NCBI GenBank assembly: GCA_019635735.1
Contig: JAHBYX010000003.1
Span: forward strand, 372,001 to 436,000
DNA length: 64,000 nucleotides
From: Mesorhizobium sp.
GTDB taxonomy: Bacteria; Pseudomonadota; Alphaproteobacteria; Rhizobiales; Rhizobiaceae
Direction: 5' to 3'
Each line of letters opens with the position of its first letter. Position 1 is the stretch's first letter. A model generated the notes under the pieces. It worked only from the letters and a program-made list of their open reading frames with translations. It was not told the origin of the DNA and searched no databases. Of this stretch, positions 684 to 14,164 are shown piece after piece. The translations under genes and the position numbers were made by a program.

Positions 684-2105
684 TCACGCCGCCGCCTCCG
701 CGTGTCCCGCCATCAGTTCGCCCAGCTCCCGCACCGTTCGCTCGCCGCGCGCGGACGGTACTGACAGCCGGCCGCCCGAAATCACCACGGTGCGGTCGGC
801 GAGCGTCAGGATCTCGTCGAGGTCCTCGGAGATCAAGAGCACCGCCGCCCCCCTCGCCCGCGCCTCGAGCAGCCGGCCGTGGACATAGGCGATGGCGCCG
901 ACGTCGAGGCCGCGCGTGGGCTGGTTGGCGAGAATGATGACCGGTTCGGGATCGAGCGCGCGGCCTAGGATCAGCTTCTGCATGTTGCCGCCCGACAGCA
1001 GGCGGATGCGCGCGTCGGGGCCAGGGCACTTGACGTCATAATCGCGGATGATCTCTTCCGCGAAATTTCGGGCGGCTTTCCAGTCCATGAAACCGTGCTT
1101 CGAGAAACGCGGCGTGCGGTAGCGCTCGGAGATGACGTTCTCCATGACGCTCATGTCGGCGATGGCGCCGACGGCGTGGCGGTCCTCGGGGATACGGGCG
1201 ATGCCGGCTTCGAGCGCCGCGACCGGGGACCAGTTGTCCGGCGCGTGACCCTGCACGGCCATCGAGCCGGACTGCGGCGTTTCCAGGCCCGACAGCAGGC
1301 CGGCGAGTGCCGCCTGCCCGTTGCCCGACACGCCGGCGACGCCGGTGATCTCGCCGCTGTGCAAGGAAAGCGTCACGCCGGAAAGCGGAGTGCCGGTGCC
1401 CCGGCGCGGGGTCGATACGTTCTCCATGATCAGCAGGGCCGGGCCGGTGACGACGGGCGGAACCGGCGGCGGCACGAGGTCCTGCCCGACCATCAGGGCG
1501 GCCAGCGCCTTGCGGTCGGTCTCGGCGGTGCGGCGTTCGCCCGCCACCTTGCCGGCGCGCAGCACGACGACGCGGTCGGAGATCGCCATCACCTCGTTGA
1601 GCTTGTGCGAGATGAAGATGATCGACAGGCCTTCGGCGACGAGCTTGCGCAGCGTCGAAAACAGGGCGTCGGTTTCGAGCGGGGTGAGCACGGCGGTCGG
1701 CTCGTCGAGGATGAGGATGCGCGCGTCGCGGTAGAGCGCTTTCAGAATCTCGACGCGCTGGCGCTCGCCGACGGTCAGCGCGGAAACGAGGCTGTCGGGA
1801 TGGACCTCGAGGCCGAAATCGGCGGAAAGTTTGCGGATCTTCTGCCGCGCCGCCTCACGCCGGAAGCGCGGTGCGAACAGCGGCTCGGTGCCTAGCGCGA
1901 TGTTTTCGAGCACGGTCATGTTGTCGGCGAGCGTGAAATGCTGGTGGACCATGCCGATGCCGGCATCGAGGGCGGCGCGCGGGTCGCCCGGGGGCAGTTC
2001 CGTACCGAAGGCCTCGACCGTGCCGTCGTCGGCGACGTAATGGCCGAAGAGGATGTTCATCAGCGTCGTCTTGCCGGCGCCGTTCTCGCCCAGCAGCGCC
2101 ACCAC
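684..2105 (-). CDS. ABC transporter ATP-binding protein, double-NBD BMP/sugar type
   Basis: This cytoplasmic ATPase has two fused nucleotide-binding domains. The first has Walker A GENGAGKTT, signature LTVGERQRVEIL and Walker B ILILDEPTA. The second is the usual degenerate half with VSGNGQAAL and LSGGNMQKL. It powers the adjacent BMP-type importer. The only conventional in-frame start is GTG at 2105, giving 473 aa. The frame stays open upstream and encodes the expected N-terminus (RLASITKRFGPLVAND, about 2181-2134), but has no ATG, GTG or TTG before the stop at 2298-2300. A family B repeat abuts this point at about 2204. The GTG start would remove the first strands of the NBD, so the real start is uncertain: it may be a rare codon, or the native start may have been lost. 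Confidence 0.85.
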   Translation of the reverse strand: MVALLGENGAGKTTLMNILFGHYVADDGTVEAFGTELPPGDPRAALDAGIGMVHQHFTLADNMTVLENIALGTEPLFAPRFRREAARQKIRKLSADFGLEVHPDSLVSALTVGERQRVEILKALYRDARILILDEPTAVLTPLETDALFSTLRKLVAEGLSIIFISHKLNEVMAISDRVVVLRAGKVAGERRTAETDRKALAALMVGQDLVPPPVPPVVTGPALLIMENVSTPRRGTGTPLSGVTLSLHSGEITGVAGVSGNGQAALAGLLSGLETPQSGSMAVQGHAPDNWSPVAALEAGIARIPEDRHAVGAIADMSVMENVISERYRTPRFSKHGFMDWKAARNFAEEIIRDYDVKCPGPDARIRLLSGGNMQKLILGRALDPEPVIILANQPTRGLDVGAIAYVHGRLLEARARGAAVLLISEDLDEILTLADRTVVISGGRLSVPSARGERTVRELGELMAGHAEAAA

Positions 2106-2203
2106 CTCGCCGCGCGCGAGGTCGAGCGAGATCGCATCGTTGGCGACGAGCGGCCCGAAGCGCTTGGTGATGGAGGCGAGGCGGAGGACGGGGGCGCCGA
2201 CGT

Positions 2204-2363
2204 TCCCTCCCCCTTGAGGGGAGGGTGGCGGCGCAGCCGCCGGGTGGGGTTGCTGCGGCAGGGCTCGACGTCCTCTGTTTGCTGATCCAAGGCGGAGTCA
2301 CCAAATTGGCGACCCCACCCGACCGGCTTTCGGCCGGCCACCCTCCCCTCAAGGGGGAGGGAT
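2204..2363. repeat. Pair of inverted family B elements between ATPase and binding-protein genes
   Basis: Two copies of the family B element face each other, 2204-2250 in reverse and 2311-2363 forward, separated by about 60 bp of unrecognised sequence. Each contains a CCCTCCCC-type hairpin and a GGC-rich hairpin. As a pair they can form a long stem. They fill the whole gap between the BMP gene stop (2369) and the coding-like 5' end of the ATPase (about 2200). The copy next to the ATPase appears to occupy the place where its start codon and ribosome site should be. Confidence 0.75.
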
Positions 2364-2368
2364 CACGC

Positions 2369-3394
2369 TCAGCTCGACTTCGGCTCCGTGTCGTTGATCT
2401 CGACCGTGAAGCTGCCGTCCTTGATGGCCTTTTCCTTCTCGGCGACCTTGGCCATGACCTCGGCGGGCACCTTGCCCTCGAAGGTGCCGAGCGGGGCGAT
2501 CGAGCAGCCGCCTTCCTTCATGAAGGAATACATGCCGTAATCGGCGGCCTTGAAGGTGCCGGCCTTGACCTCGGCGATGGCCTTGTCGAGCGTCGGCTCG
2601 AAGTGCCAGAGCGCGGAGGCGACGACGGTGTCCGGGTAGTCCTTCTGCGTGTCGATGACGTTGCCGATGGCCAGCACGCCCTTCTCCTTGGCCGCGTCCG
2701 AAACGCCGAAGCGCTCGGCATACATGACGTCGGCGCCGGCATCGATCTGGGCAAACGCGGTCTCCTTGGCCTTGGGCGGATCGAACCAGGAGCCGATGAA
2801 GGCGACCTGGAACTTGGCGTCGGGCGCGGTCTTCTTCACGCCGGCCATGAAGGCGTGCATCAGGCGGTTGACCTCGGGGATCGGGAAGCCGCCGACCATG
2901 CCGATGTTCTTCGACTTGGTCATGGCGCCGGCGATGATGCCGGTGAGGTAGGACGCGTCCTGGATGTAATTGTCGAAGACGGAGAAGTTCGGATTCTTGT
3001 CGTCCGGCTTGAACGACGAGCCCATCAGGAAGGCGGTGTCGGGATAGTCGGCGGCGACGGTGCGCGCGGCCTCCTCGACGCCGAAGACCTCGCCGACGAT
3101 CAGCTTGTTGCCGGCCTCGGCATATTCGCGCATGACGCGCTCATAGTCGGTGTTGGAGACGTTCTCGGTGGCGACGTATTCGATGTCGCCGCGCTCCTTG
3201 GCCTTCAGCGCCGCTTGGTGGATGCGCGACACCCACTGCTGCTCGAAAGGCACGGTGTAGATCGCCGCGACCTTGAGCTTTTCCTGGGCGAAGGCCCGGC
3301 CTGCGAGACCGGGAGCAAGGGCGAGCGCCGCGCCGGCTCCGGTCGCCTTCAGGATCTGGCGGCGCGAGAAGAAGAGATTGCTGGGTCTTGTCAT
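2369..3394 (-). CDS. BMP family ABC transporter substrate-binding protein
   Basis: Periplasmic binding protein of the BMP/Med/PnrA family, which mostly bind nucleosides or related compounds. The chosen ATG at 3394 (MTRPSNLFFSRRQ) follows AGAGGTGG about 6 bp upstream. The N-terminus is a twin-arginine signal (SRRQILKAT at residues 10-18, hydrophobic stretch, AFAQ cleavage near 36), so it should be exported folded by Tat. The body begins with KVAAIYTVPFEQQWVSRIHQ, followed by family-typical segments. At 341 aa it is normal in length. It heads the ATPase and permease genes below it and lies downstream of the amidase, separated by a terminator-like hairpin, so it probably has its own promoter. 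Confidence 0.9.
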   Translation of the reverse strand: MTRPSNLFFSRRQILKATGAGAALALAPGLAGRAFAQEKLKVAAIYTVPFEQQWVSRIHQAALKAKERGDIEYVATENVSNTDYERVMREYAEAGNKLIVGEVFGVEEAARTVAADYPDTAFLMGSSFKPDDKNPNFSVFDNYIQDASYLTGIIAGAMTKSKNIGMVGGFPIPEVNRLMHAFMAGVKKTAPDAKFQVAFIGSWFDPPKAKETAFAQIDAGADVMYAERFGVSDAAKEKGVLAIGNVIDTQKDYPDTVVASALWHFEPTLDKAIAEVKAGTFKAADYGMYSFMKEGGCSIAPLGTFEGKVPAEVMAKVAEKEKAIKDGSFTVEINDTEPKSS

Positions 3395-3467
3395 GTTCCA
3401 CCTCTGGCTTGCGGGTCCGGCCGATCCGTCCCACGATTTTTTATCGTTTGGACAAAATCTAAGCAGA

Positions 3468-3502
3468 AATCGCGCCTGCCGCAATCGGATGCAGGCGCGA
3501 TT
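3468..3502 (-). terminator. Hairpin after the amidase gene
   Basis: Perfect 12-bp inverted repeat, AATCGCGCCTGC at 3468-3479 and its complement at 3491-3502, with an 11-bp loop, 31 bp after the amidase stop codon. In the minus-strand transcript a T-rich stretch (TTCTGCTTAGATTTTGT) follows. This fits a factor-independent terminator, although the T run is imperfect. The promoter of the BMP gene would lie between it and 3394. Confidence 0.6.
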
Positions 3503-3532
3503 CCGGTGAATTGTATGAATAGCGCCGGCGTG

Positions 3533-4960
3533 TCAGAGCTTCGGCCGCGCCGTGGCCTCGCCGTACCAGCCGCCCACAGACTTCTCGTAGGCGATCGCGG
3601 CGCGCATGACGTCCTCGTCGCAATAGGTCCGGCCGACGATCTGCATGCCGGTCGGCACGCGGTTCTTCGCGTGGCCGGTCGGCACCGAGATGACCGGGCA
3701 GCGCGACAGCATGTTGAACGGCGTGGTCATGACCCAGCCGAGCGACGGATCGACGACCTTGCCGTTGATCTTCACCTCGTCCTTCGACTGGTCGTGATCG
3801 GCGGGCACGGCGGCAAGCGCGTTGGTCGGGCAGATGAAGATGTCGTAGTCCTCGAGCAGCGGGCCGAGAGAGTTGTACATCTCGGCTGCGGTCTCCAGCG
3901 TCGAGACGAAGTCGGTCGCCTTGGACGACTGGCCCTCCTCGGCGAATCTGCGTGTATATGTGCAGAGATCGTCGGCATGGTCCGCCAGCAGCTTCGCCAG
4001 CGAGGCGCCGAACAGGTGGTTGAGATAGGCCATGCCCTGCTGCAGCGCGTTCTTCGGCCAGCCGAGATCGACCTCCTCGACCGTGGCGCCGAGCGAGCGG
4101 AAGACGTCGAGCGCGGCCAGCGTGTTCTTCCGGACTTCCCTGTCGACCTCGAACAGGCCGAGATCCATCGACCAGGCGATCTTCCACTTGCCGATCGGCT
4201 TGTATTTCGTCGGCAGCGTCAGCTTGGGCCTGAGGCTCGCGATGTCGAGCGGGTGCGGGCCGCACATCACGTTCTGCAGCAGGATCGTGTCCTCGACCGT
4301 GCGCGCCATCGGGCCGGTGTGGCAGTAGAAGTCGAGATTGAACGGCGGGTCGTCCGGGTTGCGGCCATAGGGCGGCTTGAAGCCGACGACGCCGCAGGCC
4401 GACGCCGGGATGCGGATCGAGCCGCCGATGTCGGAGCCGGTCGCGATCGGCGCGAGGCCCGCGGTGAGCGCCGCGCCCGAGCCGCCGGACGAGCCGCCGG
4501 TGGTGAACTTCGGGTTCCATGGATTGCGCGTGACACCCCAGAGCCGCGACCAGGTGTAAGCCGCGCAGGAGAATTCCGGCGTCGCCGTGCGGGCATGGAC
4601 GATTCCGCCGGCGGCCATGATGCGCTGGTTGTTGGGCGAGGTCTTCTCGGCGACGAAATCCTTGAGGATCAGCGAGGCGTTCGAGGTCGGCTTGCCGGCG
4701 ATGTAGCTCTCGTCCTTGACGGCCACAGGCAGGCCTTCGAGCGGCCCGGTCTTCTTGCCCTTGGCGTATCTCGCTTCCGCCTTCTTCGCCAGCGCCAGCG
4801 CCTCGTCGTAATGCGTGTAGGTGAAGGCGTTGATCTTGTCCTTCGTCGCTTCCGCCCGATCGATCACCGCCGTCATCAGTTCGACCGGCGACAGCTTCTT
4901 CTTCCTGAACAGCGAAAGCGCCTCGGTCGCAGACATGTAGCAGAGGTCGAGGTCGCTCAT
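3533..4960 (-). CDS. Amidase-signature family hydrolase (NylA/GatA-like)
   Basis: Cytoplasmic amide hydrolase of the amidase signature family, 475 aa. The Ser-cisSer-Lys triad is visible: Lys82 in LPVAVKDES, Ser157 in GGSSGGSG and Ser181 in DIGGSIRIPAS, with the spacing known from family enzymes. The start ATG at 4960 overlaps the stop of the upstream serine hydrolase (ATGA) and has CCGGAG about 8 bp upstream. Family members cleave diverse linear and cyclic amides, including the 6-aminohexanoate cyclic dimer. Context (a NylB-like partner and a polyamine importer just upstream) suggests an amine-containing amide or lactam substrate. It is not likely to be GatA, because no gatC or gatB is present. 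The exact substrate is unknown. Confidence 0.88.
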   Translation of the reverse strand: MSDLDLCYMSATEALSLFRKKKLSPVELMTAVIDRAEATKDKINAFTYTHYDEALALAKKAEARYAKGKKTGPLEGLPVAVKDESYIAGKPTSNASLILKDFVAEKTSPNNQRIMAAGGIVHARTATPEFSCAAYTWSRLWGVTRNPWNPKFTTGGSSGGSGAALTAGLAPIATGSDIGGSIRIPASACGVVGFKPPYGRNPDDPPFNLDFYCHTGPMARTVEDTILLQNVMCGPHPLDIASLRPKLTLPTKYKPIGKWKIAWSMDLGLFEVDREVRKNTLAALDVFRSLGATVEEVDLGWPKNALQQGMAYLNHLFGASLAKLLADHADDLCTYTRRFAEEGQSSKATDFVSTLETAAEMYNSLGPLLEDYDIFICPTNALAAVPADHDQSKDEVKINGKVVDPSLGWVMTTPFNMLSRCPVISVPTGHAKNRVPTGMQIVGRTYCDEDVMRAAIAYEKSVGGWYGEATARPKL

Positions 4961-6153
4961 TCGAGTGCTCCGGAGATGGCATGGACCGCGCGCAAGGTCG
5001 CGACCGAATAGGGGTGATTGAGGAATTCGGGCCAGGTCGACAGTTTCACGGTGACGATCCGCGCGTCGAAATTGACATGGATGAGCTGGCCGAAGACGCC
5101 GCGGCACATCAGGTTGCGGGACTGCGCGTCCTCGATCCAGAACTGGTTGCGGTAGGAGCCGGGAAACGCCGTGCTGTAGGCTTGGCCATAGGAAGCGCCG
5201 TCGCGGGTGGCCGCGATCCATTCCGCCGGCACGATGCCCGCGCCATTGTCCAGGATCATCTGGCCGAAACGGCCATAGTCGCGCAGCGTCGCGTTGAAGC
5301 CGCCGTCGGCGAGCGCATAGCCGGCGCTGTCGACGGTGAAGCAGGCACTCTCCTCGCAGCCGAGTTTCTGCCAAAGCTCGTCCGAGACGAGGTCGGCCAG
5401 GCGCCTGCCGGTCACGCGCTCCATCGCGAAGGCCAGCACGTCGGTCTCGATGGAGCGATATTCGAACGCCTCGCCATGGGGGCGGTCGAGACGCTTCAGC
5501 GTCAGGATCAATTCCCACATGTGCGAAGGCCATTGGAACTCCGGATCGGCGCCCGGCGGGACCGGTTTCCAGCCGCTGGCGACGTCGGTCTGGCCGATCT
5601 CCGAATAGGGGTCGGTGTATTCCTCGCTGAAATGGACGCCCGTCGTCATGTCGAGCACCTGTTGCAGTGTGGCGCCATTCCACGCGGTGCGGACAAGTTC
5701 AGGAAGGTAGTCGGTGACAGGCCGCGAAGGTTCGAGCAGGCCGCGTCCGACGAGTATGCCGGCGACGGCGGAGGTGACGGATTTCGCCATCGACTGCGAC
5801 AGGTGCAGCGTGCGCGGCGTCATGCCGTTGAAATAGCGTTCGTAGACCACCGCCCCGTCCTTCAGGACAAGGAAGGCGTCGGTGTAGCTCTCGTCGAGAT
5901 GGTCGAGCAGCGTGGACGGCCGGCCGGCGCTGTCGGCGACGGCGAGCGCGTCGAGGCCTCGCTCCGCGCGCGGCAGGCGCGACGCGTGGCCGGGTCCCTT
6001 CCACACTTCGACGGTCGGCAGCAGTTCGCGGATGTGCTGGAACGACCAGCGGTTCCACGGCGGCCTGTCCCAGTCCATGCGCGGCGGCACGAGACGGGGC
6101 GGCGACCCGAGCATGATCGGCGGGCGCGGCTCGGAGTTGCGGTAGGATTTCAT
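4957..6153 (-). CDS. Beta-lactamase-fold serine hydrolase, NylB-like
   Basis: 398-aa serine hydrolase of the class C beta-lactamase/esterase fold. Ser121-x-x-Lys124 (SQSMAKSV) is the nucleophile motif. Tyr179 and Tyr232 (EYRS) lie at spacings close to those of the active-site tyrosines in 6-aminohexanoate-dimer hydrolase NylB. No signal peptide is visible, so it is probably cytoplasmic. It is translationally coupled to the downstream amidase and starts 49 bp after the polyamine-binding protein gene, with a GC hairpin in the gap. I infer that the two hydrolases process an amide brought in by the neighbouring importer. Esterase or D-amino-acid amidase activity is an alternative that sequence alone cannot exclude. 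Confidence 0.85.
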   Translation of the reverse strand: MKSYRNSEPRPPIMLGSPPRLVPPRMDWDRPPWNRWSFQHIRELLPTVEVWKGPGHASRLPRAERGLDALAVADSAGRPSTLLDHLDESYTDAFLVLKDGAVVYERYFNGMTPRTLHLSQSMAKSVTSAVAGILVGRGLLEPSRPVTDYLPELVRTAWNGATLQQVLDMTTGVHFSEEYTDPYSEIGQTDVASGWKPVPPGADPEFQWPSHMWELILTLKRLDRPHGEAFEYRSIETDVLAFAMERVTGRRLADLVSDELWQKLGCEESACFTVDSAGYALADGGFNATLRDYGRFGQMILDNGAGIVPAEWIAATRDGASYGQAYSTAFPGSYRNQFWIEDAQSRNLMCRGVFGQLIHVNFDARIVTVKLSTWPEFLNHPYSVATLRAVHAISGALE

Positions 6154-6170
6154 CGTCGCCCGAAGGAAAG

Positions 6171-6195
6171 CGGCCCCGGCGTGGCGCCGGGGCCG
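6171..6195 (-). terminator. GC-rich hairpin between binding protein and hydrolase genes
   Basis: Perfect 11-bp stem (CGGCCCCGGCG at 6171-6181, complement at 6185-6195) with a 3-nt loop, 8 bp after the stop of the polyamine-binding protein gene. Only a pyrimidine-rich CTTTCCTTC follows, not a true T run. It may be a partial terminator or an RNA-stabilising stem that keeps binding-protein mRNA abundant relative to the hydrolase genes. Confidence 0.55.
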
Positions 6196-6202
6196 GGATG
6201 CG

Positions 6203-7237
6203 TTACTTCTGAACCTCGGTCCAGATCTTCGTATAGATCTCCTGCACCTCAGGCGCGCAGCGGAGCATGAACTTGCCCTTGTCCGAGAATTCGGCCGGCG
6301 TCACGATCTCCGGCGCCGTCGCCATCTCCGGCGGCATGAACTTCTCCGAGCCCATGATGCCGTTGGCGTATTTGGCGAAGTTGGAAATCAGCGCCGCGTT
6401 CTCGGGCGCCATGACGAAGTTCAGGAAGAGCTTTGCGTTCTCGACGTTCTTGGCGTCCTTCAGGATGGCGGCGTTGTCCATCCACAGCGGGTAGCCTTCC
6501 TTGGGATAGCCGTAGTGGATCGAGCTCTTCGCGTCGCGCATGCGCAGCGAGGCGCCGTTCCAGTTGACCGTGGCGGCATAGTCGCCCTTGGCCATGGCTT
6601 CGATGTTGCCGTAGTTCATCGAGATCCACTTGGTCTTGGCTTCGACCAGCTTGTCGCGGACCTTCTTCAGGACCTCCTTGTCGCCGGTGCAGGGCTCGCC
6701 GCCCATATAGCGGATGGCGAGATGCATGACGTCGGCCATCTCGGGCACGACGTTGATCTTGCCGGCGAGTTCCGGCGGCGGGTCGAGGAAGATCGCGGAG
6801 GTGTTGATGTCGCCCTTGTAGACGGCGGTGTCGACGGAGACGCCCGTGGAGCCCCACTGCCACGGAACCGTGTATTTGCGGCCCGGGTCGAATTCGACGT
6901 CCACCCAGCGCGGGTCCACGTTCTTGAAGTTCTCCATCTGGTTCGGATTGGATTCGAGCAGCAGGCCTTCCTCGACCCAGATCTGGACGTAGGAGGCCGA
7001 GGGCACGACGATGTCGTAGCCGTGGCCGCCCTGGCGGATCTTGCCCAACGCGGTGTCGTTGGAATCGTAGTCGGTCACGGTGACCTTGACCTTGTAGGTC
7101 TCCTCGAACTTCTTGATCAGATCGGGCGCCGTGTAGTTGCCCCAGTTGAAGATGTTGAGCTCGCCCTCGGCGCGGGCAAGCCCGGTCGTGGCGAGAAGCG
7201 CGGCGGTCATCGCCGCGATCGTCAGTCTGCGTTTCAT
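6203..7237 (-). CDS. Polyamine ABC transporter substrate-binding protein (PotD/PotF-like)
   Basis: 344-aa periplasmic binding protein. It has a Sec signal peptide (MKRRLTIAAMTAALLATTG, cleavage near ARA-EG at 23). The mature start ELNIFNWGNYTAPDLIKKFE followed by YDIVVPSASYVQIW is diagnostic of the spermidine/putrescine-binding family. The start at 7237 has AAAGGAAG about 7 bp upstream. The gene is last in the potA-potB-potC-potD order on the minus strand. The ligand could be putrescine, spermidine, an acylated polyamine or a related cation. The presence of carbamoylputrescine and acetylpolyamine hydrolase genes nearby supports a polyamine-type ligand. Confidence 0.92.
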   Translation of the reverse strand: MKRRLTIAAMTAALLATTGLARAEGELNIFNWGNYTAPDLIKKFEETYKVKVTVTDYDSNDTALGKIRQGGHGYDIVVPSASYVQIWVEEGLLLESNPNQMENFKNVDPRWVDVEFDPGRKYTVPWQWGSTGVSVDTAVYKGDINTSAIFLDPPPELAGKINVVPEMADVMHLAIRYMGGEPCTGDKEVLKKVRDKLVEAKTKWISMNYGNIEAMAKGDYAATVNWNGASLRMRDAKSSIHYGYPKEGYPLWMDNAAILKDAKNVENAKLFLNFVMAPENAALISNFAKYANGIMGSEKFMPPEMATAPEIVTPAEFSDKGKFMLRCAPEVQEIYTKIWTEVQK

Positions 7238-7261
7238 CTCAGCTTCCTTTCCCTCTGGTTG

Positions 7262-8065
7262 TTATGTGCGTCGCCTGCTGATGAAGAAGAACAGCGTCAC
7301 GATCAGGATCGAGATCAGCAGGAAGACAGTGGAGATGGCGTTCATTTCCGGCGTGACGACGCGCCGGAGCTGGCCGAGCATGTAGGTCGGCAAAGTGTCC
7401 TGGCCGCCGGACTTGACGAACTCGGTGATGACGACGTCGTCCAGCGAGATGACGAAGGCGAGCATAAGACCCGCGATGATGCCGGGCCATAGGAGCGGCA
7501 GCGTGATGCGCGTGAACGTCTTCCACGGCGTGGCGTAGAGGTCGGCGGCCGCCGTCTCCAGCGTCAAGTCCATGCTCTCCAGCCGCGCCCGGATCGGCAG
7601 ATAGGCGAAGGGAATGCAGAACGCCGTGTGCGCCGCGATCAGGTAGCCGAGCCCGGAATAGCCGGTGGCAACCTTGATGCGGGCAAAGACGATGAGCAGC
7701 GCGACCGCCGTGACGATTTCCGGGATCATCAGCGGCTGGTTGATGAAAGCGTATTTGAAGGTCAGCCCGCGATACGGTTTCGTCCTCGTCGTGGCGAGCG
7801 CGGCCATCGTCGCGGCGATGGTGGCGACCACGGCCGCGACCGAGGCGATCTGGACGGAGCGGATCGAGGCCTCGAGAACCTGCTGATTGTTCCACGCCTG
7901 CCGGAACCAGCGTAGGGAAAAGCCTTGCCAGATCGCCACCGAGTTGCCCTCGTTGAAGGCATAGACGACCAGCGTGACGATCGGCAGATAGAGGAGCGCG
8001 AAGCAGAATATCGCGATGGTGGCGAAGCCGGGCTGGCGCTTGATGGCGAAATTGGATCTAGCCAT
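7262..8065 (-). CDS. Polyamine ABC transporter permease (PotC/PotI-like)
   Basis: 267-aa inner-membrane permease with about six membrane segments. The cytoplasmic EAA loop that contacts the ATPase reads ETAAADLYATPWKTFTRITL. Its start overlaps the end of the partner permease by 8 bp, so the two are translationally coupled. A gap of 24 bp separates it from the binding-protein gene downstream. It forms the membrane channel with the 8058-8978 product. Confidence 0.92.
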   Translation of the reverse strand: MARSNFAIKRQPGFATIAIFCFALLYLPIVTLVVYAFNEGNSVAIWQGFSLRWFRQAWNNQQVLEASIRSVQIASVAAVVATIAATMAALATTRTKPYRGLTFKYAFINQPLMIPEIVTAVALLIVFARIKVATGYSGLGYLIAAHTAFCIPFAYLPIRARLESMDLTLETAAADLYATPWKTFTRITLPLLWPGIIAGLMLAFVISLDDVVITEFVKSGGQDTLPTYMLGQLRRVVTPEMNAISTVFLLISILIVTLFFFISRRRT

Positions 8066-8978
8066 GCCGCTGTTCCGAGTGCGCCGCGTAGCGGACGTAG
8101 AACAGGAGCGCGACCGTGACGATGACGGTGAGCGTCAGCGCCAGCGCGGCGCCGAGCGGCCAGTTGCGGCCGGCGCCGAACTGCAGCTCGATCAGGTTGC
8201 CCAGCATCATCTGCTTGCCGCCGCCCAACACGCGCGGCGTGACGTAGGCGCCGAGCGAGGGGATGAAGACCAGGATCGAGCCGGCGATGATGCCGGGCTT
8301 GACCAGCGGGATGATGATGCGCCTGAGCACCTGGAAGCGCGTGGCGTAGAGATCGTAGCCGGCCTCGACCAGGCGGAAGTCGAGCTTCTCCATCGAGGCG
8401 TAGAGCGGCAGCACCATCAGCGGCAGGTAGACGTAGACCATGCCGATGCCGATGGCCCAGTCGGTGTAGAGGATCTGGATCGGCGTCGAGGTGACGCCCA
8501 GCCAGATCAGCGCGGTATTGAGGATGCCTTCGTTGCGGATCACCTCCTGCACGGCGAAGGTGCGGATCAGGAGGTTGGTCCAGAACGGGATTGTGATGAC
8601 GAACAGCCAGAGCGCCTGCGTCCGTTCCGGCCGCGTGGCGATGAAATAGGCGGTCGGGAAGCCGAAGAGGAGCGTCAGGATCGTCGTCGCGAAGGACAGA
8701 CGCACCGAGCGCAGGAAGATCGACAGGTGGGCGTCGGCGATGCCCAGCGTGTCGTCGAAGATGTCGCGCTGCAGGAAGACGCCGACCCAGGCGTCGGTCG
8801 AGAACTCCCACTTCACGTCGCCGTAGGGGCCGGGCGTCAGGAAGGAATAGAGCACGACGACGAGGAGCGGCCCGATGCCGGCGAGGAAGATGATGACCAG
8901 CGCGGGCGTCGAAAGCAGCCAGCGTTTGCGGATGTCGTCCCGCTCGGCCCTGGCTGCGATTTCCGCCGCTGTCGTCAT
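8058..8978 (-). CDS. Polyamine ABC transporter permease (PotB/PotH-like)
   Basis: 306-aa inner-membrane permease, the second channel subunit of the Pot-type importer. It has a short cytoplasmic N-terminus, about six membrane segments beginning near residue 23 (LLSTPALVIIFLAGIGPLLV) and the EAA loop LVEAGYDLYATRFQVLRRII. It starts 4 bp after the ATPase gene stop, which indicates tight operon packing. Confidence 0.92.
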   Translation of the reverse strand: MTTAAEIAARAERDDIRKRWLLSTPALVIIFLAGIGPLLVVVLYSFLTPGPYGDVKWEFSTDAWVGVFLQRDIFDDTLGIADAHLSIFLRSVRLSFATTILTLLFGFPTAYFIATRPERTQALWLFVITIPFWTNLLIRTFAVQEVIRNEGILNTALIWLGVTSTPIQILYTDWAIGIGMVYVYLPLMVLPLYASMEKLDFRLVEAGYDLYATRFQVLRRIIIPLVKPGIIAGSILVFIPSLGAYVTPRVLGGGKQMMLGNLIELQFGAGRNWPLGAALALTLTVIVTVALLFYVRYAAHSEQRHG

Positions 8979-8982
8979 CGCG

Positions 8983-10077
8983 TCAGTCCTTCAGGACCTG
9001 GGCGGCGTCGTCGGCGATCAGGATGCCGACATGCTCGCCCAGCTCGAAACCGCTGCCGGCGCTGCGCGTGTTCTGCTGGCGGACGATGAATGCGCCGCCG
9101 CCATCGAGGCGGACGTGGATGTTGGTGTCGGTGCCGAAGTAGACGATGTTGTCGATCACCCCCGGCAGATGCCCCTCCCCCTTCACGACGCGGGCATGTT
9201 CCGGGCGCACGACGATCGTGGCCTCGCCGGACGGCACGAGGTTCTCGGCGACGGTGGCGGCGATCGTCTTGCCGGAGGAGAGCGTCGCGTTCGCCTTGCC
9301 GCCCTCGGCGGGCTCGACCTTCGCGGTGAGGAAGTTCGTCTCGCCGATGAAGTCGGCGACGAAGCGCTCGGACGGCTTGTCGTAGATGTCCCAGGGCGTG
9401 CCGACCTGCAGGATCTTGCCCTGTGACATGACCGCGATGCGGTCGGACATCGTGAGCGCCTCCTCCTGGTCGTGGGTGACGAAGATGAAGGTGATGCCGG
9501 TCTCGTGCTGCAGGCGTTTCAGCTCGATCTGCATCTCCTTGCGCAGCTTGTAGTCGAGCGCGGAGAGCGGCTCGTCGAGGAGCAGCACCTTGGGCTGCGG
9601 GGCCAACGCGCGGGCCAGCGCCACGCGCTGCTGCTGGCCGCCGGAGATCTGGCTGGTCTTGCGGTTCTTCAGCGCCTCCATCTTGACCAGCTTGAGCATC
9701 TGGTCGACGCGCGCCGTCACCTCGTCCTTCGGCTTGCCCAGCATCTCGAGCCCGAAGCCGATGTTCTGCGCCACCGTCATGTGCGGGAACAGCGCATAGG
9801 ACTGGAAGACAGTGTTGACCGGGCGCTTGAACGGCGGCAGCGGCGCGATGTCCTGCCCGTGCAGCAGGATCTGGCCATAGGTCGGGAAATCGAAGCCGGC
9901 GATGAGCCTGAGAAGCGTGGTCTTGCCGCAGCCCGAAGGGCCGAGGAGGGTGAAGAACTCGTTTTCGCAGATGACGACCGAGACGTCGTCGAGTGCTGCC
10001 ACCCGATCGGCTCCCGAGCCGAAGATCTTCGAAACCCCGCGGACGTCGATTGCGCCCCTATCCGGATTGGCCGGCAC
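8983..10077 (-). CDS. Polyamine ABC transporter ATP-binding protein (PotA/PotG-like)
   Basis: 364-aa ATPase and first gene of the Pot-type operon. Walker A is GPSGCGKTT, the signature is [15 protein letters not shown], Walker B is [12 protein letters not shown], and the H-loop lies in [12 protein letters not shown]-terminal TOBE regulatory domain spans about residues 290-360. The start is GTG at 10077, supported by AGGGGA about 5 bp upstream. The promoter should lie in the gap 10078-10293. Confidence 0.92.
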
Positions 10078-10293
10078 GATATCCCCTGTTTGTTTTCCGC
10101 TCTTCCCGGCGGTTCATTTCGTCAATGTCAGCACAAGGCACCATGCCTTGGCAATGGAGAGTTTGAATCTCCGTTCAATTGGCGGCTCCGAGCAAGTCGC
10201 GTGCCGGACGGCGGGACAAGGGATTGGCGGGCGGACGCAGACGCGGCTGGTCAGAATTGCGGCAGGCTGCCGATTTTAGCGGCGCCCCCGCAC

Positions 10294-10402
10294 GCCGTCA
10301 TCCTCGGGCTTGTCCCGAGGATCTGCCGTCGTCGGCAGATTGCCATCACCGTCGAAGCGCTCATCTGGAGTAGATCCTCGGGACAAGCCCGAGGATGACG
10401 GC
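10294..10402. repeat. Long inverted repeat with perfect 30-bp arms
   Basis: The 339-bp gap between the potA-like gene start and the YtcJ-like gene stop contains an inverted repeat with perfect 30-bp arms at 10294-10323 and 10373-10402, separated by 49 bp. Each arm is itself a hairpin (CCTCGGG, 5-nt loop, CCCGAGG). A further stem, ATCTGCCG at 10321-10328, pairs with 10333-10340. This is a mosaic palindromic intergenic element of the kind frequent in rhizobial chromosomes. It may also terminate transcription of the amidohydrolase gene. The remainder, 10078-10293, probably holds the pot operon promoter, but I see no clear motif. Confidence 0.8.
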
Positions 10403-10416
10403 AACAGGTTCCGCAC

Positions 10417-12078
10417 TCATGCCTGAAACGTTACCTTGCCGCCGCAGACCGTCATCACCGGCCGGACCTCGTGAAGCGCTTCCGGATCGACCGCCTCGAT
10501 GTCGTGCGACAGGACGACGAAGTCGGCGAAGAAGCCCGGCTTCAGGCGACCCTTCGTCGCCTCGGCGAATTCGGTATAGGCGCCCTCGACCGTGTATCCG
10601 GCGATCGCCTCGTGCAGGGAGTAGCTGTGGTCGGGCAGGCCCTCGGCCCAGGGCTTGCGGATCATCGCCGACTGGATGCCGAGGATCGGGTCGACGTTCG
10701 ACACCGGCCAGTCGGAGGCAAAGACGACATGGGCGCCGGTGTTCTTGAGCGTGCGCCAGGCATAGGCGAGCCGCCAGCGGTCGCGGCCGATGCGCGAGAC
10801 GGTCGGCTCCAGCGGCAGGCCTTGCGAGCCCGGCGGATGCGGCGGCTGCATCGAGCAGATGACGCCGAGTTCGGCGAAGCGCGGCACGTCGGCGTCGGTC
10901 GTCACCTCGATATGCTCGATGCGGTGGCGGCTGTCGCGCCTGCCATTGGCCTTCTGCGCCGCCTCGTAGCCGTCGAGGACGGAGCGCACCGCGCCGTCGC
11001 CGATGGCGTGCACCGCGATCTGCAGCCCGCGCCGGTCGATCTCGGTGGCGATGCGGGCGAACTCGTCGGCGGGAAACAGCGGCTCGCCCACCCAGTCCGG
11101 CCGGTCGGCATAGGGCTCGACCATGACGGCCGTCCACGAGTCCAGCACGCCGTCCATGAACAGCTTGACGAAGCCCGACCTCAGCCATTCGTCGTCGAAG
11201 CGGCGGGTCATCTCGGAGGCGCGCTCGAGCTCGGAGATCTGCATGAAGTTCTTGTAGTGGAACGGCACGCGGGCGCGGCAGAGCAGCTTGCCCTCGTCGC
11301 GCAGCTCCGACAGCAGTTCGAGCGTGTAGGCGTTGCCGTCCATGTTGTGGAACGAGGTGATGCCGTGCTTTGCCGCGTGCTTCAGCCCTTCCAGCAGCAC
11401 GGCGCGGTCGGCGGCGCGCTCGGCGGCGGTCGGCGGCGTTTCCGGCTCGCCGCCGGTCGAGATGCCGAGCCTGATCCGGTCTTCGCCCGCCAGCGCCACC
11501 ACTGGTCCCATCGCTTCGCTCTCGCGGAGCTCGCCCTCGGCCAGCCCGTCGGCGCCCATGACGATCTCGTTGCCGGGTCCGAGCTTCTTTCCGTGCAGGA
11601 TGCCGGCCATCTCCAGCGCCTTCGTGTTCGCCCACATCGTGTGGTGGTCGGGCGAGGACATGGCGAAGGGGCGGTCGGGAACGATCCGGTCGAGATGATG
11701 GCGGGTGACCGGCTCGGTCTCGGACAGGATCGTGTAGTCGGCGCCCTGCGCCTGCAGCACTTTCCGGTCGGGATTGGCGGCGGCGAAAGCCTTCACCTTC
11801 GCCGACAGTTCGTCGAAGCCCTTGACGCCGAAGAGCTGCAGGTGGCCGAGTTCGGCGGCGCCAAGCAGGATGTGCAGGTGGCTCTCGATGAAGCCGGGCA
11901 GCACCGATTTGCCCGCGGCGTCGATCCGCTTCGCACCCGGCGCGGCGAGGCGCTCGATGTCGCCTCGGCTGCCGACCGCCACGATGCGTCCGTCTGCCAC
12001 CGCCATCGCCTCCGCCGCCGGATTGCCCTCGTCCATCGTGAGGATCCGCGCATTGGTGACGATCAAGTCTGCCTGCAA
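10417..12078 (-). CDS. Amidohydrolase, YtcJ-like
   Basis: 553-aa metal-dependent hydrolase of the amidohydrolase superfamily, YtcJ subgroup. Visible features are the N-terminal beta-sandwich (LIVTNARILTMD), the metal motif ESHLHI, VKLFMDGV, HAIGDGAV, HRIEHIE and the C-terminal SDWPV with the catalytic Asp. No signal peptide is seen, so it is cytoplasmic. Members act on N-substituted formamides and other amides, and true substrates are mostly unknown. It is transcribed away from the divergent acetylpolyamine amidohydrolase gene, sharing a 179-bp promoter region (12079-12257). A role in removing acyl groups from an imported amine is a guess from context. Confidence 0.88.
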   Translation of the reverse strand: MQADLIVTNARILTMDEGNPAAEAMAVADGRIVAVGSRGDIERLAAPGAKRIDAAGKSVLPGFIESHLHILLGAAELGHLQLFGVKGFDELSAKVKAFAAANPDRKVLQAQGADYTILSETEPVTRHHLDRIVPDRPFAMSSPDHHTMWANTKALEMAGILHGKKLGPGNEIVMGADGLAEGELRESEAMGPVVALAGEDRIRLGISTGGEPETPPTAAERAADRAVLLEGLKHAAKHGITSFHNMDGNAYTLELLSELRDEGKLLCRARVPFHYKNFMQISELERASEMTRRFDDEWLRSGFVKLFMDGVLDSWTAVMVEPYADRPDWVGEPLFPADEFARIATEIDRRGLQIAVHAIGDGAVRSVLDGYEAAQKANGRRDSRHRIEHIEVTTDADVPRFAELGVICSMQPPHPPGSQGLPLEPTVSRIGRDRWRLAYAWRTLKNTGAHVVFASDWPVSNVDPILGIQSAMIRKPWAEGLPDHSYSLHEAIAGYTVEGAYTEFAEATKGRLKPGFFADFVVLSHDIEAVDPEALHEVRPVMTVCGGKVTFQA

Positions 12079-12257
12079 GATGAGTTCCCCTTTGTCGTTG
12101 GAAGCAGGCTAGCACCGGCTCGCTCCAAAGCGCCACAGGTTGTTCTTTGGTCCAGATGAAGGATCGGAATGTGCCAGAAGCCTCGGCTTGCGGACGGCCG
12201 CGAAAAGCCGCTAGCCTTGGTTCGCCGCCAAGCGGCACAACCCGACAGGATCCCCGC

Positions 12258-13288
<1,031 letters not shown>

Positions 13289-13289
<1 letters not shown>

Positions 13290-14164
13290 TGGACGAGGTC
13301 AACAAGGTCACGCTCGGCGTCGTCCAGTTCGCCTGTTCGGACGACGTCGGCGAGAACATCGCAACGGCGTCGCGGCTCGTGCGGGCGGCGGCGGCCGAGG
13401 GCGCCAACATCGTCGTCGTGCAGGAACTCTTCGAGGGCCACTATTTCTGCCAGGAGGAGAACCCGGCGCATTTCGACCGCGCCCGGCCGCTCGATGGGCA
13501 TCCGACGCTCGCCGCGATGCAAGCCCTCGCCGCCGAATACGGCGTTGTCCTACCCGTCTCGCTGTTCGAGCGGAGGAACCAGGCCTACTACAACTCGCTG
13601 GTGATGGTGGACGATCGCGGCGAGGCGCTCGGCGTCTATCGCAAGTCGCATATCCCCGACGGGCCGGGCTATTCGGAAAAGTTCTACTTCAATCCGGGCG
13701 ACACCGGCTTTCGCGTCTGGAAGACGCGCTTCGGCACGATCGGCGCCGGGATCTGCTGGGACCAGTGGTTCCCGGAGGCGGCGCGGTCGATGGCGCTGAT
13801 GGGGGCGGAGTTCCTCATCTATCCGACGGCGATCGGCTCGGAGCCGGGCCGGCCGGATTTCGATTCCATGGAGCACTGGCGCATCACGATGCGGGGGCAC
13901 GCCGGCGCCAACCTGATGCCGGTGGCGGCGGCCAACCGGATCGGGACGGAAGTCGTCAACGGCCGGACGCAGACCTATTACGGCTCGTCCTTCATCGCCG
14001 GGCCGCAGGGGGATCTGCGCGCCAGCGCGGGGCGCGAGGGCGAGGCGGTGCTGACGGCGACGTTCGACCGGGCGATCATGCGCAACGAACGCGCGGCCTG
14101 GGGCCTGTTCCGCGACCGGCGGCCGGAGCTTTACGGGGCGCTGGCGGGGGCGGATGGGGGTTGA
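13289..14164 (+). CDS. aguB: N-carbamoylputrescine amidase, nitrilase superfamily
   Basis: 291-aa carbon-nitrogen hydrolase. The Glu-Lys-Cys triad is visible: Glu46 in VVVQELFEG, Lys119 in YRKSHIPDG and Cys156 in GAGICWDQWF. The runs DGPGYSEKFYF and CWDQWFPEAAR are characteristic of N-carbamoylputrescine amidases, which release putrescine, CO2 and ammonia. Its 1-bp overlap with the acetylpolyamine amidohydrolase gene indicates a joint role in converting modified putrescine to the free diamine. Beta-ureidopropionase is a less likely alternative. Confidence 0.9.

Follow-up and report, generated by a model that had tools for sequence, protein, structure and literature searches.

The closest described systems

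NylB (1wyb, 2zm0), the 6-aminohexanoate linear-dimer hydrolase, is a close described relative of the serine hydrolase considered here. What NylB-type enzymes do in nature is, to our knowledge, an open question that is tied to the evolution of nylon-oligomer degradation. The dimer activity of NylB is given as 200 times that of a homologue with 88% identity (PMC10858056), and Asp181 and Asn266 are said to matter for its activity on the linear dimer (PMC7019077). A further report describes an interaction of NylB with the N-terminus of the dimer, lists Asp181 among the reaction sites, and names the 6-aminohexanoyl (acyl) side as the part that is strictly recognised (PMC11052090). Both positions also appear in PDB titles among our structure-search matches, where G181D and H266N are named as engineered changes. 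For spermidine/putrescine-type uptake, the reference systems are E. coli PotABCD and PotFGHI, and the primary-amine site of PotF is given as S38, D39, and D247 (PMC8666671).

Here we analysed a window of 64,000 nucleotides from the soil bacterium Mesorhizobium sp. (contig JAHBYX010000003.1, positions 372,001 to 436,000), in which a NylB-like gene and an amidase gene follow a Pot-type importer. All coordinates below are those of the window unless a locus handle precedes them.

The NylB-like hydrolase and its partner amidase

The NylB-like gene (4957–6153, minus strand) is an intact ORF encoding a beta-lactamase-fold hydrolase of 398 aa (Pfam Beta-lactamase, E 3.3e-34), which we placed using phmmer, a residue map, and an AlphaFold2 model. 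By phmmer it matches NylB entry 2zm0 with E 2.9e-65, well past any chance similarity, and the two proteins are identical at 137 of 340 aligned residues (40%). The first-pass annotation had described Ser121, Lys124, Tyr179, and Tyr232 as spaced nearly as in 6-aminohexanoate-dimer hydrolase, and the alignment agrees column for column, with S121/K124/Y179/D190/Y232 falling on NylB S112/K115/Y170/D181/Y215. The Ser-x-x-Lys nucleophile motif (S121, K124) and the Tyr215 equivalent (Y232) are present, as are the equivalents of Asp181 (D190) and of Tyr170 (Y179), the latter a functional position that we take to be a marker of the NylB type. The protein shares its fold and Ser-Lys-Tyr set with NylB but differs at Asn266, a residue expected of an efficient linear-dimer enzyme, where it has D283; its gene also differs in sitting in a chromosomal polyamine-type operon. 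The AlphaFold2 model (pLDDT 82.3, 40 sequences), which was also searched with Foldseek, is structurally closest to 4gb7 (Z 47.0, with 368 aligned), followed by PIB-1 (8rlj, Z 44.0), while NylB lies at Z 39.0. 4gb7 is a putative 6-aminohexanoate-dimer hydrolase of Bacillus anthracis, but it has 28% identity to the window protein and its function name is the depositors' own.

The stop of the NylB-like gene and the start of the amidase gene (3533–4960, minus strand) share the bases ATGA. The amidase ORF is likewise intact and encodes an amidase-signature enzyme of 475 aa (Pfam Amidase, E 1.3e-88), with K82, S157, and S181 in the family motifs as Lys, cis-Ser, and Ser, respectively. Both the overlap and these three residues had been noted at first pass and were confirmed on reading the sequence. 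The enzyme had also been called NylA-like, which stands at the superfamily level and fails as a specific assignment. Although it shares the amidase-signature family and the Lys/Ser/Ser set with both aryl acylamidase 4yj6 and NylA 3a2p, the nearest solved relative is 4yj6, which aligns over the full length (E 9.8e-58, residues 8–462), whereas the best stretch against NylA spans only residues 2–240 (E 1.2e-39). On this comparison we rejected NylA membership. The protein falls below every NCBIfam cut-off shown, and its AlphaFold2 model was unusable (pLDDT 32.2, 7 sequences). By eye, an evident signal peptide is absent from the starts of both the NylB-like protein and the amidase, so both enzymes likely act in the cytosol.

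Operon organization and neighbouring genes

On the minus strand, the gene order is an Amidohydro_3 gene, potA-, potB-, potC-, and potD-type genes, the NylB-like gene, and the amidase. The first gene of this apparent operon encodes an Amidohydro_3 metal-dependent hydrolase (10417–12078, minus strand; PF07969, E 1.3e-104) and is separated from potA by 339 bases; from potA through the amidase, the intergenic gaps are at most 49 bases. The importer consists of a PotA-type ATPase (8983–10077, minus strand; TIGR01187, 381.2 bits, above the cut-off of 355.6), a PotB-type permease (8058–8978, minus strand; NCBIfam PotB, E 8.1e-71, below cut-off), a PotC-type permease (7262–8065, minus strand; NCBIfam PotC, E 2.9e-58, below cut-off), and a PotD/PotF-type periplasmic binding protein (6203–7237, minus strand; putrescine-binding proteins at E 1.2e-44 and weaker). 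As in E. coli PotABCD and PotFGHI, all four component types are present together, but in the window the importer is coupled to NylB-like and amidase-signature hydrolases. The pair had been placed beside a diamine importer at first pass, and a spermidine/putrescine-type ABC importer does lie directly upstream.

Divergent from the operon are an HDAC-type acetylpolyamine amidohydrolase (12258–13289, plus strand) and AguB, an N-carbamoylputrescine amidase (13286–14164, plus strand; TIGR03381, 439.8 bits, above the cut-off of 410.25). The closest solved relatives of the former are acetylpolyamine amidohydrolases (9gkz, E 2.7e-132; 6phr, E 5.7e-121; 3q9b, E 1.2e-105), and we infer its start at 12258 since the 9gkz alignment begins at residue 38 of the ORF at 12147–13289. 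Directly downstream of the amidase, at 684–3484, there is a Bmp/PnrA-type binding protein and an ABC ATPase; L036 and L139, two close relatives, have both with the cluster in the same order.

Scans for promoters and terminators over 2300–13400 gave matches in chance-level numbers. They also showed a strong, GC-rich hairpin at the junction of potD with the NylB-like gene (6171–6195, minus strand), which stood out only by comparison with relatives. We surveyed this junction in 73 of 80 relatives, leaving out six with the amidase in between and one without potD. A stem of at least 9 pairs occurs in 68 of the 73, compared to 12 of 73 in one mononucleotide shuffle each, and the stem sequences differ among lineages in the first 25 relatives listed. 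The hairpin may separate the expression level of the binding protein from that of the enzymes.

Ligand site of the binding protein

Alignments place G33, N34, and A229 of the window binding protein at PotF S38, D39, and D247; the first automatic alignment put PotF 247 in a gap, and A229 comes from a second alignment. The proximal carboxylates of the primary-amine site, D39 and D247 in PotF, are therefore replaced by Asn and Ala, while acidic residues are kept at PotF positions 182, 185, and 278. Of 108 binding proteins encoded near a NylB-like gene, 69 have Asn and 39 have Asp at position 39, and 1 has Asp at position 247. The same genome encodes a canonical PotF-like protein at another locus (L197), which by eye has Asp at both motifs. 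These substitutions hint weakly that one end of the ligand may not be a free primary amine. E. coli PotD also has no second carboxylate, with Ser at the 247 position, so the proximal-site residues leave the ligand class undecided.

Pocket residues of the NylB-like clade

We surveyed the pocket in 103 aligned rows and defined the clade of the window protein as the 61 rows with at least 44% identity to it. The Tyr170 equivalent is found in 60 of these 61, position 190 is Asp in 58 (Gly in 3), and 52 have Asp at position 283, where the other 9 have Cys, Ser, or Asn. Asp at 190 recurs among the other 42 rows only in L146 and in NylB itself. Judged from these alignments, a residue tied to nylon-dimer activity (PMC7019077) hardly varies within a clade that is chromosomal and linked to importers. 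The same Asp residues at 190 and 283 occur in clade members beside peptide importers, so Asp190 would be the mark of a substrate with a cationic end and not specifically of polyamines.

At 78 of 85 loci a tandem NylB-type paralogue lies near the NylB-like gene; its position 190 is Arg (in 19 of 20 NYLB2 rows) and its position 283 is Ala or Ser. At L067:11235-12416 and in its equivalents at most Mesorhizobium loci, the paralogue directly follows the NylB-like gene and has Arg in place of Asp190 and Ala in place of Asp283, giving the pocket the opposite charge. In a quick maximum-likelihood tree of the 103 rows, the importer-type label changes 22 times vs a mean of 43.5 for shuffled labels, and 0 of 200 shuffles were as low as 22, a result that near-copies help. 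Arthrobacter NylB falls outside the window clade in this tree, on a long branch whose placement is unsure.

Conservation of the linkage in relatives

The related-locus search kept 80 of 150 confirmed loci, nearly all from Mesorhizobium or Aminobacter. To these we added loci from further genomes and counted genes lying no more than 7 kb from the top NylB-like gene, in bit-score bins that hold many near relatives and include some loci cut by contig ends. A potD gene lies within this distance at 98 of 102 loci scoring at least 440 bits, which are close orthologues, mostly from Mesorhizobium. By bin, potD is found at 84/85 loci (at least 600 bits), 14/17 (440–600), 5/28 (300–440), and 0/21 (below 300). 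The amidase type is near the NylB-like gene at 21 of the 102 loci, with 10/85, 11/17, 1/28, and 0/21 in the same bins, so most Mesorhizobium loci have no nearby amidase. Of the 11 amidases in the 440–600 bin, the one at L116 is weak (193 bits) and the one at L169 is fragmentary. A Dpp-type importer gene follows a different distribution, at 0/85, 3/17, 14/28, and 2/21 loci.

The amidase beside the NylB-like gene is broken at L060:8853-9928, a locus of the top bin (two pieces), and at L169:2375-3842 (pieces), either as a decayed gene or through assembly error. Its presence in pieces makes the amidase seem dispensable in some lineages.

Where the amidase is present, its position varies by group: it directly follows the NylB-like gene, separates that gene from potD, or lies upstream in divergent orientation. 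The two genes occur together in six family-level groups (f1, f10, f14, f23, f38, f53). Because gene order has changed while the company is kept, a functional link is favoured over inherited order alone. We set aside chance adjacency since order and orientation shift while the genes remain together. With 7 amidase-signature genes in 4.96 Mb (8 matches, two counted as pieces of one gene), a calculation by hand puts one near a given gene about 2% of the time. Across 397 genomes of the order, the NylB-like gene is present in 34 (E <= 1e-80) and the amidase in 32 (E <= 1e-130), and both occur in 20 of the 397 vs 2.7 expected, with a Fisher p of 8e-17 that ignores kinship.

We also chose 20 further amidase loci from 39 matches, namely those not adjoining a NylB-like orthologue. 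A potD gene of at least 200 bits lies within 7 kb in 10 of them, and some PotABCD-type gene of at least 200 bits in 13, leaving 7 with none. Two of these unlinked loci, L203 and L206, have a NYLB2-type paralogue instead, and L206 also has potABCD, HDAC-type, and AguB genes. Genes for acetylpolyamine amidohydrolase and AguB lie near the operons of several relatives as well.

Other neighbours vary among loci. At L116:15469-17913, a pair of PAD_porph genes of the agmatine-deiminase type and one AguB-type gene diverge from a pot–NylB-like–amidase cluster, and at L127:5248-6816 a gamma-glutamyltranspeptidase-type gene comes after a Pot operon next to two NylB-type genes. L118:1434-10120, and likewise L121, L122, and L174, combine a Dpp-type binding protein and fused Dpp ATPases with an amidase and a NylB-like gene. 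The best solved match of the L118 amidase is NylA 3a2p, over the full length (E 6e-71). As far as sequence comparison can tell, the chromosomal pairing of NylA and NylB types is closer in these four loci than in the window, and there it is joined to a peptide importer, not a polyamine importer.

Discussion

The observation behind the first-pass annotation is right, its NylA label is too strong, and the conserved context is stronger than foreseen. It had suggested that the natural role might be read from the chromosomal pair, and a polyamine-related role is indeed plausible, with an arrangement conserved in relatives. On balance, and with modest confidence, we predict that the pair closes a conserved operon for importing and hydrolysing polyamine conjugates, or similar amides that bear an amine, in a deacylation cassette whose amidohydrolases would be interchangeable. 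We favour polyamine conjugates because of the NylB-type fold and residues, the Pot importer, the acetylpolyamine amidohydrolase, AguB, the kept linkage despite a varying layout, the excess of genomes with both enzymes, the Pot-type genes at 13 of the 20 unlinked amidase loci, and the near-constant Asp190. PotABCD would import the conjugate into the cell, and its amide bonds would then be hydrolysed in the cytosol by the NylB-like enzyme and by the amidase with its Lys82/Ser157/Ser181 set. By analogy with NylB, Ser121 would be the nucleophile, Lys124 and Tyr232 would serve as the base, Tyr179 would sit near the leaving nitrogen, and Asp190 and Asp283 may line a pocket for the cationic end of the substrate. 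The neighbouring acetylpolyamine deacetylase and N-carbamoylputrescine amidase would carry out the same chemistry and yield putrescine-type amines. We infer the substrate class, the cytosolic site, and the division of labour among the enzymes from this combined picture.

Several findings weigh against this prediction: members of the clade also adjoin importers for peptides (at 14 of 28 loci in the 300–440 bit bin), the amidase is scarce in Mesorhizobium loci and in pieces at L060 and L169, the 7 unlinked amidase loci described above have no Pot-type gene of at least 200 bits, and the loci counted come mostly from near relatives. The importer could instead carry another cationic or zwitterionic nitrogen compound on which both enzymes act, such as omega-aminoacyl or guanidinoacyl amides, short peptides of non-protein amino acids, or lactam-derived amides. 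We consider this explanation unlikely, though it deserves real weight: related clade members adjoin peptide importers of the Dpp type, in some cases together with a NylA-type amidase, and the binding protein is without the proximal carboxylates of PotF. Since NylB strictly recognises the acyl side (PMC11052090), the cation pocket may read an omega-aminoacyl group and not the polyamine side. However, acetylpolyamine amidohydrolase and AguB genes adjoin the operon in the window and lie near those of several relatives.

It is quite improbable that the NylB-like protein is mainly a family VIII carboxylesterase, with the amidase a generalist and the place in the operon incidental. The superfamily is common to esterases EstG, EH7, and EstB, but these match the model at Z 26–28, far below the 39.0 of NylB, the Tyr170 and Asp181 equivalents are retained, and the linkage is kept in several families. 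A relative of PIB-1-kind beta-lactamases with a role against antibiotics would fit the second-best structural match (8rlj, Z 44.0) and a sequence match of E 7.1e-38. NylB is nevertheless the better match by sequence and the surrounding genes are polyamine-type, which leaves this role very improbable. Least credible is that the pair degrades nylon oligomers as such. The families are common to NylB and, at the superfamily level, NylA, but the amidase is not specifically NylA-like. Being chromosomal and widespread in Mesorhizobium and Aminobacter, the arrangement is unlike a response to a modern polymer, and we set aside a nylon-degradation pathway because the arrangement is too widely conserved.

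Beyond the polyamine-conjugate operon predicted for the window, a wider reading is possible but somewhat doubtful: alphaproteobacteria may scavenge conjugated polyamines by mixing unrelated amidohydrolases around one importer, with the NylB Asp as an old ammonium-gripping residue. The enzymes in this mixture would be the NylB-type hydrolase, its tandem paralogue of opposite charge, and the amidase-signature, HDAC-type, nitrilase-type, and Amidohydro_3 enzymes. If the Asp is old and nearly fixed, the pocket that takes the nylon dimer would have been an amine-amide pocket already and not a novelty. For rhizobia, an appealing class of substrates would be plant phenolamides; such amides are discussed for another root symbiosis (PMC9956245).

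The fold and type of mechanism are known, and the polyamine-operon setting is new as far as our literature searches show: among the matches listed, titles and abstracts gave no link between NylB-like enzymes and polyamines, with most subscription papers outside their coverage. For the family, the tandem paralogues, with Asp vs Arg at one pocket position, offer a natural experiment in selectivity by charge. The amidase-signature partner adds a second enzyme for the same pathway. The conserved operon, its importer, and neighbours of known chemistry narrow the natural role of these enzymes to a short list of candidate substrates, and the association with the importer, conserved in several bacterial families, suggests that such enzymes naturally cleave polyamine-like amides.
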